64,000 bases of DNA from Methanomassiliicoccaceae archaeon (lineage in GTDB: Archaea > Thermoplasmatota > Thermoplasmata > Methanomassiliicoccales > Methanomethylophilaceae). Positions 50,018 through 54,520 of the stretch are shown here, piece by piece. Position numbers and translations under genes: made by a program. The notes beneath the pieces are model-generated. The model ran no database searches, had not been told where the DNA came from, and saw only the letters and a list, made by a program, of their open reading frames with translations. The stretch lies in assembly GCA_034928305.1 (NCBI GenBank), contig JAYFOZ010000005.1, positions 1 through 64,000 on the forward strand, given 5' to 3'. Position 1 is the stretch's first letter, and each line of letters opens with the position of its first letter.

Positions 50018-51766
50018 ATGGTGGAAATTACAATTAAAGCAGAAGCGCCTAAGTCGATCAAGCTCCCCCGAATACAGAAAGAACTTACGCAGTGTGTCCA
50101 GTGCGGTTACTGCATCTCTGTGTGCGAGGCCCACGGGCAGACCCCCTGGGAGTCTGTGACCCCCAGAGGAAAAATCTACTACCTGAACCAGCTTGACAAG
50201 GTCGGCATGGGCGTCGAGGACAGGCTCCTCGGAAGGAAGGTCACTGTCAGCCCGGAGTTCGTCGACGCCATTTACAAATGCACAGGCTGCGGAAACTGCG
50301 AAGCGGTCTGCCACGCCAACATCCACCTTGTAGCGCTCTGGGAGAACGTCAGGGCATGGCTTGTCAAGAACGATTATGGACCGATGCCCGCCCATAAGGC
50401 CATGCACGAGAAGATAGCGGCCAACCACAACCCCTACGGCGAGCCGGACGAAACAAGGTCCGCATGGTGGCCCAAGGATGTTGAGAACACCGCCGTTCCC
50501 GACGTCATATTCTTTGCGGGATGCACGGCATCCTACAGGATGATGGAGATCGCCAAGGCCGGTGTGACTGTCCTGTCCCGCGCCGGTGTGAAGATCGGCA
50601 CCATGGGATCTGAAGAATGGTGCTGCACCTCCCCGCTGATCAGGACCGGGGACAGGGAGCTTTCGCTCGAATTTTCGCAGCACACCGTCGAGACGGCTGA
50701 CGGAACCGGCGCCAAGGACATGGTGATGACCTGCTCCGGATGCTACAAGACGATCCTCAACGATGCGGGTAAATTCTACTCCAAACCCGGACAGAACGTG
50801 TACCACTTCTCACAGTACGTCGAGAGGCTCATCGCGGAGAGGAAACTTCCGCTCAACAACGAGTTCAAAGCAAAGGCGACCTACCACGACCCGTGCCACC
50901 TCGGAAGGCATGCGGGAGTGTTCGAACCGCCCAGAAACGTGATCAAGAAGATCAAAGGCATCGAATTTGTGGAGATGTACCGCAGCAGAGACATATCCAG
51001 GTGTTGCGGTGCAGGCGGAGGATACAAGAGCCAGTACGGAGACTATGCCGTTAACGTGGCTGCCGAGAGGATTGCCGATGCGGAAGAGGTCGGAGCCGAC
51101 CTCATAATATCTTGCTGTCCGTTCTGTGTCCTGAATCTCAGGGCGGGAGCCAAAAAGGCAGGTTCCAAGATTAAAGTGATGGACCTATCCGAGGTCCTGC
51201 TGCAAGTCACGGCCCCCAAGCAGGAAGGGCCGGCCAAGGAAGCCGATAAACCTGCGGCAAAGACCGAGGCCGTGCCGGCCAAGGTGGCGGAGGCCCCTAA
51301 GGAAGTCGCGAAACAACAGGTGACCCCTAAGGAAGTCGCTAAGCCTGTCGAAACACCCAGGGAGGTCGCGAAACAACAGGTGACCCCTAAGGAAGTTGTC
51401 AAGACCGAAGTTATCGCAGAATCGCCCGGATGGGTCGAGAACGAGACCGAAGAAGTATACATCGACGACTACACCGACAAATCTCCTGAGGCGCTCGTCA
51501 GAAGGTCTGCATGGAACAACGGGCTGAGGTGCAGAAGGGACTACGGAATCGAACGCATACCCGTCGCCTTCGTGAAGGGGAGGGTAGCCGTCTTCGTACA
51601 ACCCAGAAATTCAGACAGGACGATGGACAGCAAGCTCAGAGCCAAAGGCTGGACCGTCCTCCGGTACAATGAGGAGGACATCACCGACGGTGCAGAGCAG
51701 GGCGAGGAGATCGCCAAGGCCGTTAAGGAGAACCTCAGGGCCGCCAAGAAAAAGAAGAAGCGGTAA
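50018..51766 (+). CDS. hdrD: HdrD-type heterodisulfide reductase subunit with C-terminal Vsr-like domain
   Basis: A 582-residue protein. Two 4Fe-4S ferredoxin motifs (Cys26/29/32/36 and Cys88/91/94/98) are followed by two CCG domains (FFAGCTASY ... EEWCCTSP ... TCSGCYKT and DPCHLGRH ... SRCCGAGGG ... SCCPFC), which bind the non-cubane cluster that reduces CoM-S-S-CoB. This is the HdrD layout, usual length about 400. A Pro/Ala/Lys/Glu-rich linker (about 395-480) leads to an extra domain, residues 486-575 (SPEALVRRSAWNNGLRCRRDYG, FVKGRVAVFVQPR, LRAKGWTVLRYNEEDI), which follows the Vsr/DUF559 endonuclease pattern without its catalytic Asp. The gene is monocistronic, with a strong promoter. Confidence 0.88.
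   Translation: MVEITIKAEAPKSIKLPRIQKELTQCVQCGYCISVCEAHGQTPWESVTPRGKIYYLNQLDKVGMGVEDRLLGRKVTVSPEFVDAIYKCTGCGNCEAVCHANIHLVALWENVRAWLVKNDYGPMPAHKAMHEKIAANHNPYGEPDETRSAWWPKDVENTAVPDVIFFAGCTASYRMMEIAKAGVTVLSRAGVKIGTMGSEEWCCTSPLIRTGDRELSLEFSQHTVETADGTGAKDMVMTCSGCYKTILNDAGKFYSKPGQNVYHFSQYVERLIAERKLPLNNEFKAKATYHDPCHLGRHAGVFEPPRNVIKKIKGIEFVEMYRSRDISRCCGAGGGYKSQYGDYAVNVAAERIADAEEVGADLIISCCPFCVLNLRAGAKKAGSKIKVMDLSEVLLQVTAPKQEGPAKEADKPAAKTEAVPAKVAEAPKEVAKQQVTPKEVAKPVETPREVAKQQVTPKEVVKTEVIAESPGWVENETEEVYIDDYTDKSPEALVRRSAWNNGLRCRRDYGIERIPVAFVKGRVAVFVQPRNSDRTMDSKLRAKGWTVLRYNEEDITDGAEQGEEIAKAVKENLRAAKKKKKR
51295..51414 (+). repeat. Two 60-base tandem repeats in the HdrD linker
   Basis: Units 51295-51354 and 51355-51414 are nearly identical over about 40 bases (GGAAGTCGCGAAACAACAGG and following). 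They encode the linker repeat PKEVAKQQVTPKEVAK, seen twice with small changes. Recent duplication in a flexible linker. Confidence 0.85.
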
Positions 51767-51778
51767 ATCGAGTGCTGC

Positions 51779-54520
51779 GTGAAGATGCCCTTTGACATGC
51801 TGAGCCCCTGGCTCTCCAAGATGCTTAGCGAAAGGGGCATCTATGAGCCTACGGAACCCCAGGCGGACGCCATACCAAAGATAGCAAAAGGGCAGAACGT
51901 ACTTCTTGTCGCACCTACGGGCATCGGTAAGACAGAAGCGGCGGTTCTGCCTATACTCGACGAGATAAAACGCCGTGGCGGCGTCGGGTTCCAGTGCATC
52001 TACATAACTCCCCTGCGCGCGCTGAACCGCGATATGCTGAAAAGACTGGAGGACTACGGGAGGGAATCCGGCATATCGGTGGGCGTGAGGCACGGAGACA
52101 CCACTCAGAGCGAGAGAAACAGCCAGTCGAAAAATCCTCCTCAGATACTTATCACGACGCCCGAGACCCTACAGGTGCTTTTTACCGGGAAGGTGCTCAG
52201 AGAACATCTGAAAAAGGTACGCTGGGTCGTTGTCGACGAGATACATGAGCTCGCCGATAACGAAAGAGGCGCGCAGCTGAGCGTGGCCTTAGAACGGCTT
52301 TCCATACTGGCGGGGGAATATCAGAGGATCGGGCTGTCCGCGACGGTCGGGGATGTCGAGGAAGTTAAAAAATTTTTATCTGGCACTAAACGGGAGGTCA
52401 TTGTTTGCAGGCACGACACCCACCGAGATTATGATATTACCGTGGAGTGCCCGGGACCGGACTCCGACCCGCATCTCCTCGACAAGCTTCAGACCGACCC
52501 AGAAATGATGGGCGTCATGAAGCACGCACGAGACCTCATCGAAGCGGGCAATTCGACGCTGTTCTTCGTTAACACCAGGGAGACGGCGGAGTGGCTGGCC
52601 GCGAGATACCGTCTCTGGGACCCCGAATTCTCGATAGGCGTGCACCACGGGTCCCTTTCGAAAGAGAACCGCATGGACATAGAGGACCGTTTCAAGAACG
52701 GTGAACTGAAGGCACTGGTGTGCACATCGTCCCTGGAGCTGGGAATCGACGTCGGGACCACAGACCTGGTGATACAGTTCAACTCCCCCAGACAGGTCTC
52801 GAGGATGATCCAGCGTGCCGGCCGTGCCGGCCACCGTGTCGGGGAGATCATAAGAGCCAGGATAATAGCCACGGCACCTGACGAGGTGGCCGAGGCAATG
52901 GTCGTCGCAAGGAGGTCGGACGAAAGAGATATGGAGATACTGGAGGGCAGGAAATGCCCGCTCACGGTGGTTGCAAACCAGCTCGTGGCGATGACGATGG
53001 GCGGCAGGATGGACAGAGATGCCGCATTCTCGGTCTTCAAGCGGTCATATCCTTTCAGCACTCTCGAAAGGACGGAGATGAACGACGTCCTGGAACAGTT
53101 GAAATCCATCAAGATGATATTCGAAGACGATGAGGGCTTCAGACGTTCCCGTCGCGGAATGGATTATTTTTACAACAATATTTCGATGATACCCGATGAA
53201 AGAACATACCTGATCCGCGACATCGGAACCCGTTCGATCATTGGTACCCTGGACGAGAGCTTCGTCGCAACCTTTGCGGAGGAATATGCCATGTTCATCG
53301 CCAAGGGCAGGACGTGGAGGATCGTCGAGATGAGAGAGGACGAGCTCCTTGTGGAGGAGGCGAGAGAGATCGGCTCCGTTCCGTCATGGACCGGATCAGA
53401 CATTCCCGTTCCTTTCGAGGTCGCCATGGAGGTCGGACGGATGCGCAGGCTCCGCAACTACAAGGACTATCCCTGCGACGATAATTGTTCCAGCACCGTG
53501 GAAACTTTCCTCAGTTCACAGGGGGACCAAGCCATGCCTACCGACCAGACCGTTACATTGGAGGTTGGTGACAGGATCGCAATAATCAACTGCTGCTTCG
53601 GCACCAAGGTCAACGAAACAATAAGCAAGATCGTCTCGGCGCTTCTGACGGCACGTTTCGGAGAGAGCGTCGGAGTATCGACGGATCCGTACCGCATCAT
53701 AATGGAGCTGCCCCGCAACATTTCGAAGGAAGATCTGGAGAGCACGTTCAGGCTCATACGGCCGGGAACCGTGGAGGACCTCTGCCGCAAGACGATATTG
53801 AATTCTTCTTTCCTGAAGTGGAGGTTCGTATATGTCGCAAAAAAGTTCGGTATTATCGAAAAGGAAGCTGACCATCGCTTCATGAACTTCAACCGGCTGT
53901 TCGATTTGCACATGGGGACGCCTGCTTACAGAGAGGCTGTCAACAAGGTCCTCTGGGACGACCTGGACATCCTAAACACCGAGAGGGTCGTCTCTATGAT
54001 GGCCGGGGGCGAGATAAATATAGTTTCCGGAAGGGTCGCCCCGATAGGCCTCGAAGGCCTTACCCGCTCCAAGGAGCTCATGCAGCCGATACGCGCCGAC
54101 CACTCCATCCTGATGGCAATGAAAAAAAGGATCGACGACGAGACGCTCTTCGCGACCTGCCTGAACTGCGCATCCCAATGGAGATTCCGGGTTGGCGACG
54201 CCCCCGACCGGCTAACTTGCCACAGTTGCGGTGGCGTCATGATCGCAGCGCTAAAAGAATATGAGAGGGAGAATGTCAAGCTCCTCAGACAGAAACGCAT
54301 CACCGCACAGGAAAAGAAAGAGATCCTGCGCATGTCACGGAACGCGAATCTGGTGAGAGAACAGGGAAAGATGGCGATATTCACACTGGCCGGAAGGGGC
54401 ATAGGGCCGGAAGGGGCTTTCAGGATCCTTCGTGGCATTCATGTGGACGAGGATGAATTCCTAAGGGACATCATGTCGGCCGAGATCCTGTATGCGAAGA
54501 ACAAGAGGTTCTGGGACTGA
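51779..54520 (+). CDS. lhr: Lhr-type DEAD/DEAH helicase
   Basis: A 913-residue superfamily 2 helicase. Motif I is APTGIGKT (45-52), motif Ia TPLRALNRDM, motif II DEIH near residue 153, motif III LSATVGD, and motif VI QRAGRAGHR. The C-terminal half has the Lhr-core winged helix and beta-sheet region, then an unusual zinc-ribbon-like segment (CLNCASQWRF ... CHSCGG, about 793-820). Lhr-core proteins unwind branched DNA and RNA-DNA hybrids. Starts at GTG 51779 or ATG 51785, 12 bases after hdrD. Confidence 0.9.
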   Translation: MKMPFDMLSPWLSKMLSERGIYEPTEPQADAIPKIAKGQNVLLVAPTGIGKTEAAVLPILDEIKRRGGVGFQCIYITPLRALNRDMLKRLEDYGRESGISVGVRHGDTTQSERNSQSKNPPQILITTPETLQVLFTGKVLREHLKKVRWVVVDEIHELADNERGAQLSVALERLSILAGEYQRIGLSATVGDVEEVKKFLSGTKREVIVCRHDTHRDYDITVECPGPDSDPHLLDKLQTDPEMMGVMKHARDLIEAGNSTLFFVNTRETAEWLAARYRLWDPEFSIGVHHGSLSKENRMDIEDRFKNGELKALVCTSSLELGIDVGTTDLVIQFNSPRQVSRMIQRAGRAGHRVGEIIRARIIATAPDEVAEAMVVARRSDERDMEILEGRKCPLTVVANQLVAMTMGGRMDRDAAFSVFKRSYPFSTLERTEMNDVLEQLKSIKMIFEDDEGFRRSRRGMDYFYNNISMIPDERTYLIRDIGTRSIIGTLDESFVATFAEEYAMFIAKGRTWRIVEMREDELLVEEAREIGSVPSWTGSDIPVPFEVAMEVGRMRRLRNYKDYPCDDNCSSTVETFLSSQGDQAMPTDQTVTLEVGDRIAIINCCFGTKVNETISKIVSALLTARFGESVGVSTDPYRIIMELPRNISKEDLESTFRLIRPGTVEDLCRKTILNSSFLKWRFVYVAKKFGIIEKEADHRFMNFNRLFDLHMGTPAYREAVNKVLWDDLDILNTERVVSMMAGGEINIVSGRVAPIGLEGLTRSKELMQPIRADHSILMAMKKRIDDETLFATCLNCASQWRFRVGDAPDRLTCHSCGGVMIAALKEYERENVKLLRQKRITAQEKKEILRMSRNANLVREQGKMAIFTLAGRGIGPEGAFRILRGIHVDEDEFLRDIMSAEILYAKNKRFWD

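Follow-up and report, generated by a model that had tools for sequence, protein, structure and literature searches.

The protein of HdrD type encoded in the window (the whole 64,000-nucleotide stretch of DNA that was analysed) ends in a module that is derived from Vsr endonucleases and, judged by its sequence, nuclease-dead. The module was confirmed as specific, within the class Thermoplasmata, to one archaeal family, Methanomethylophilaceae, and as common to HdrD and to membrane anchors. The open-access papers that were searched contained no description of it.

The HdrD-type protein and its C-terminal domain

The open reading frame, its coordinates and its sequence agreed exactly with the first-pass annotation. 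The features of this region, all on the plus strand, are as follows.

50018..51766, + strand: HdrD-type protein of 582 aa that ends in the dead-Vsr domain (open reading frame and sequence)
50081..50323, + strand: two CxxCxxCxxxC [4Fe-4S] motifs, C26-C36 and C88-C98 (Pfam Fer4_8, E 3.3e-9; motif positions)
50498..50767, + strand: first CCG domain, C169-X32-CC-X35-CxxC (Pfam CCG; motif)
50879..51142, + strand: second CCG domain, C293-X35-CC-X36-CxxC (Pfam CCG, best stretch residues 288-375; motif)
51209..51427, + strand: flexible linker rich in Lys, Glu, Pro and Ala, with (P-K-E-V) repeats (TRF; linker survey)
51473..51742, + strand: Vsr/DUF559-like domain, residues 486-575, with the P515 codon at 51560-51562 (profile, fold, dN/dS)
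51743..51763, + strand: Lys/Arg-rich C-terminal tail AKKKKKR (tail survey)
51779..54520, + strand: Lhr-type helicase, downstream neighbour of HdrD (Pfam DEAD, Helicase_C, WH_Lhr, DEAD_assoc; synteny)

Each of the 61 relatives searched gave a match to the protein. Residues 22-102 contain two CxxCxxCxxxC motifs, and residues 169-370 contain the two CCG domains that had been claimed earlier, with every cluster cysteine present. CCG matched the protein twice in Pfam (E 5.8e-34), and Fer4 was matched too. The protein therefore has both features by which HdrD is recognized, two CCG domains and two [4Fe-4S] ferredoxin motifs. No NCBIfam equivalog scored above its cut-off, the best being TfrB with 223.4 versus 385, and "HdrD-type" is accordingly an assignment from architecture and homology. 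Reduction of CoM-S-S-CoB is the putative activity assigned to the protein by homology. The repeat-bearing linker was also borne out, with a 30-bp period and 3.4 copies at 51294-51396 (TRF). This linker evolves rapidly and measures 55-310 aa in relatives. The basic tail is kept in both main kinds of carrier of the domain, with a mean net charge of +6 to +7.

With a single sequence as query, the domain scored below threshold for both DUF559 (E 0.0038) and vsr (E 0.0033), and the domain alone reached 17.5 bits for DUF559 (PF04480) versus a Pfam gathering cut-off of 20.6. Despite these scores, the domain was recognized as Vsr-like because an alignment of 27 relatives decided the matter. Pfam Vsr matched 13 of these 27 members (best E 6.6e-5) and DUF559 matched 12. 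Comparison of the alignment with nine free Vsr proteins from Methanomethylophilaceae by hhalign gave a probability of 98.6%, an E-value of 9e-16 and 30% identity over 83 columns. Free proteins of the Vsr type occur in this family (L107-L115); the profile of the alignment also found short free proteins in genomes of this family, and the three that were scanned were genuine Vsr (Pfam E about 1e-25). Searching the PDB by sequence, either with the single domain or with its profile, gave only chance matches.

The AlphaFold model (pLDDT 78.6) provided the fold match that had been proposed as a check. The top three PDB matches in Foldseek were two chains of the I-Bth0305I catalytic domain (3r3p) and the DUF559-like NGO0050 (3hrl), with probabilities of 1.00 yet modest E-values of 2e-3 to 2.5e-2. 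Many viral DUF559 and Vsr models matched the structure as well; none of the viral contigs searched encoded a relative of the domain. The approximately 95 aa at the C-terminus are homologous to Vsr endonucleases in sequence and have their PD-(D/E)XK-like (EDxHD) fold.

Loss of the nuclease site and conservation of the domain

Catalysis by Vsr depends on the pairing of Asp51 and His69 (PMC11879112). In the hhalign alignment GKPD-I-A-F of Vsr corresponds to ERIP-V-A-F, and D51 of E. coli Vsr to P515 of the window protein, so the replacement of the catalytic Asp, noticed in the first-pass annotation, held. Among 137 distinct domain copies the catalytic position is occupied by P in 69%, by T in 15% and by D in 6%. 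In addition, a stretch of about 29 residues is deleted behind the next strand; in Vsr proteins of Methanomethylophilaceae this stretch contains FWHG together with the remainder of the active-site loop. As the Asp is replaced and the His-bearing loop is deleted, nuclease activity is very unlikely, and the domain is taken to be nuclease-dead on these grounds of sequence. A catalytic role that was kept or came back, be it on nucleic acid or on some other substrate, is highly improbable for the domain. Asp is found at the catalytic position in the said 6% of copies, including terminal copies in genus g9, but it is Pro or Thr in more than 80%, and the loop with the His is gone.

The domain is under purifying selection. 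Within the genus, dN/dS was 0.08-0.17 in the domain and 0.03-0.06 in the reductase part; for the most distant congener the values were saturated. Profile positions R12, R13, R21, R23, Y26, W62 and D74 are 93-100% conserved in both types of carrier. Apparently split HdrD genes in two genomes (G004, G025) proved to be runs of N across the linker repeat and not true splits.

Strong matches to the domain profile were confined to Methanomethylophilaceae among 300 Thermoplasmata genomes, and the three matches outside the family were weak. Within the family, which as Candidatus Methanomethylophilaceae includes Methanoplasma, Methanomethylophilus 1R26, Methanomicula and RumEn M2, the profile was matched in 86 of 102 genomes, a count that includes a few genomes (e.g. 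G100, G108) with only such weak matches as genuine Vsr gives. The fusion is thus family-wide and no artefact of one assembly. It is hardly credible that a dead Vsr fragment was fused by chance and then merely tolerated as a neutral passenger. Several genera do have HdrD without the domain, and the linkers evolve fast; nevertheless, purifying selection, family-wide retention, the invariant residues and duplication into tandem arrays all argue against such a history.

HdrD and membrane carriers

The 107 distinct domain-bearing sequences comprised 45 HdrD and 62 other proteins. The earlier idea of a dead Vsr/DUF559-like domain on an HdrD-type protein stood by profile, fold and census. The domain is not specific to HdrD: membrane carriers have it too, and in genus g9 it is repeated in tandem. 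All but two of the 62 non-HdrD carriers (60/62) share one syntenic locus, in which a divergent beta-CASP gene adjoins the carrier and genes for a small membrane protein, TFS and PCNA lie downstream. Membrane carriers with a full N-terminus mostly have six transmembrane (TM) segments (5-7 predicted), followed by a long charged linker and the C-terminal domain. These 6-TM carriers are orthologous and were found in many genera. Their TM part is poorly conserved and has no invariant His. Pfam placed it in no family above cut-off, and a good model of it (pLDDT 88.7) gave no convincing match in the fold search. For these reasons it reads as an anchor. The idea that this part substitutes for cytochrome b or HdrE was rejected on the same grounds, as no heme-ligand His is conserved and neither Pfam nor the fold search supplied a family. 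Two further carriers (L073, L075) have other anchors of about two segments, and no neighbours of the PCNA locus were found within the flanking stretch examined.

The linkers of the membrane carriers showed two peculiarities. In genus g12 a very long coiled-coil-like repeat arm lies between the TM part and the domain (L082, L099; frames of 1031-1161 aa). The motif SS[K/R/Q][D/E][A/S] was present in 28 of 52 membrane-carrier linkers (L061-L065, L079-L102) versus 0 of 45 HdrD linkers.

HdrD of genus g9 (L067-L069, L117-L120) carries 4-7 tandem copies of the domain and measures 943-1092 aa where complete. The terminal copies in several of these proteins have Asp at the old catalytic position. Such a number of copies fits binding and avidity, and not an enzymatic role. 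In nearly all loci of the family with enough flank, HdrD, fused or unfused, is directly followed downstream by the Lhr helicase gene; the flank of a few unfused loci (L027, L028, L030) did not show this gene.

The window's own genome has the 6-TM gene at the expected place (L207:3963-4562, contig C2), but this gene ends after 198 aa without the domain, unlike that of the congeners G002, G003 and G004, which carries it. In several genera with the HdrD fusion alone, the 6-TM gene is absent from that locus. Both carriers were present in 9 of 37 genomes, the HdrD fusion only in 15, the membrane carrier only in 7, and neither in 6; this tally was read by genome, and some assemblies are incomplete. 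In genera g4 and g12 HdrD is plain and the domain occurs on the membrane carrier alone, while g8, g10 and g14 have neither fusion. As several genera use plain HdrD, the domain is not essential for HdrD function.

This independent distribution speaks against HdrD and the 6-TM carrier as obligate partners, an idea that was rejected, and it points to a shared third partner rather than to a device of HdrD only. As the genomes of the two carriers do not pair up, a simple handshake between HdrD and the membrane carrier is not obligatory. Homotypic pairing, in which the domain of HdrD would bind that of the 6-TM carrier and the carrier would thus replace HdrE as anchor, is accordingly quite doubtful. 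The same domain is found on the redox enzyme and on membrane anchors in 9/37 genomes, the order is without HdrE (PMC10804542), and tandem copies could form a self-association array. Against this, 15/37 genomes, including that of the window, have the HdrD fusion without a domain on a 6-TM carrier, and 7/37 pair the carrier with plain HdrD.

In a tree of the short domain, a single origin of the HdrD fusion was not rejected (p-AU 0.277 on few columns). Several independent HdrD fusions were therefore not adopted as an explanation. A history with one fusion each to HdrD and to the membrane protein at an early stage of the family, and losses afterwards, is sufficient.

Proposed docking, possible nucleic-acid binding and comparison with known systems

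For methanogens that have neither HdrE nor cytochromes, the field still asks how HdrD is wired to the membrane. Methanomassiliicoccales have no HdrE (PMC10804542, PMC4153887), and for their HdrD a cooperation with the membrane-bound Fpo-like complex has been suggested (PMC10804542, PMC4153887, PMC6147122). Both points make sense of a docking head on HdrD. We infer a docking or tethering role for the domain: the chances are about even that a fold of the Vsr type, with catalysis lost, is kept as a binding module for docking or tethering at the end of a flexible arm. The anatomy suggests this, since in every carrier a conserved head sits on a long variable arm and is followed by a basic tail; the carriers differ in the base, which is an anchor or HdrD. 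On the membrane carriers the domain would be displayed at the cytoplasmic face, as judged from the even number of TM segments and the basic residues after the last of them. On HdrD it would hold the soluble reductase near the same partner. The tether would then make up for the lack of an HdrE anchor and allow electrons, e.g. from the Fpo-like complex, to be delivered at the membrane. RNA or DNA is considered slightly less likely as partner than a protein or complex located at the membrane face. The fullest version of this proposal is rather unlikely. According to it, a dead mismatch-repair nuclease became a shared tether in place of the HdrE anchor, with HdrD and domain-bearing membrane proteins assembled on a scaffold that they share at the cytoplasmic face; in one genus this would happen by way of the 4-7-fold array.

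The position of HdrD next to a helicase gene and of the membrane carrier next to PCNA and TFS counts against docking and could hint at nucleic-acid biology. The domain might be a nucleic-acid-binding module similar to RAP/FASTKD, by which HdrD and the membrane carriers would be attached to the nucleoid, to ribosomes or to transcripts. FASTKD4, a protein with a fold like that of Vsr, binds RNA and shows no nuclease activity (PMC11879112), and mitoribosomal proteins of Toxoplasma were among the Foldseek matches (9i05_Xl, 9g6k_Lc); for these two reasons nucleic-acid binding is the rival with the best precedent. Strictly conserved Arg residues, the Lys-rich tail and the neighbouring genes for Lhr, PCNA, TFS and beta-CASP are consistent with it. 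However, these neighbours are common archaeal housekeeping genes and prove no link, and the Vsr loop with the FWH residues is deleted. Moreover, the core is near neutral, with a mean net charge of +1.3 in HdrD and -1.8 in the TM carriers versus +3 to +9 for whole genuine Vsr. The RAP profile (PF08373) had no match in the window's genome and none in the control genomes either, and RAP was not among the Pfam matches of the domain up to E 1. Binding of nucleic acid is judged somewhat unlikely.

Under the docking reading, the domain gives a concrete handle on how the anchor-less HdrD of a family of gut methanogens is held in the cell. A conserved add-on that is common to HdrD and integral membrane proteins and was not found in sister families is also a ready bait for the partner.

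Like HdrD of HdrDE, the window protein has two 4Fe-4S motifs and both CCG domains intact, but it adds the C-terminal linker and the dead-Vsr domain, and it belongs to an order that according to the literature is without HdrE. The domain resembles Vsr (PF03852) in fold, in the order of elements, in the LR..W..GLR.R helix-strand, in the AF...KVAVF strands and in the GW.VLRF strand. It differs in the replaced Asp and the lost loop, and it is a C-terminal fusion with a basic tail, whereas Vsr is a free enzyme. DUF559 and REase_MTES_1575 (PF04480, PF18741) belong to the same superfamily and gave weak matches to the C-terminal half, under the curated cut-off for the window protein; the acidic active-site residues are missing from the domain. 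RAP/FASTKD4 (PF08373; PMC11879112) shares the C-terminal Vsr-like fold, non-catalytic in FASTKD4, and the use as a binding module on multidomain proteins that is proposed for the present domain. RAP proteins differ in their helical RNA-binding repeats and in a context that is mostly eukaryotic and organellar. The domain would be an archaeal counterpart of RAP/FASTK, in that the Vsr fold was recruited as a non-catalytic module, here on an enzyme of energy metabolism. Non-catalytic reuse of the Vsr fold is already known from RAP/FASTKD4; in this archaeal family it is seen on HdrD and membrane anchors.
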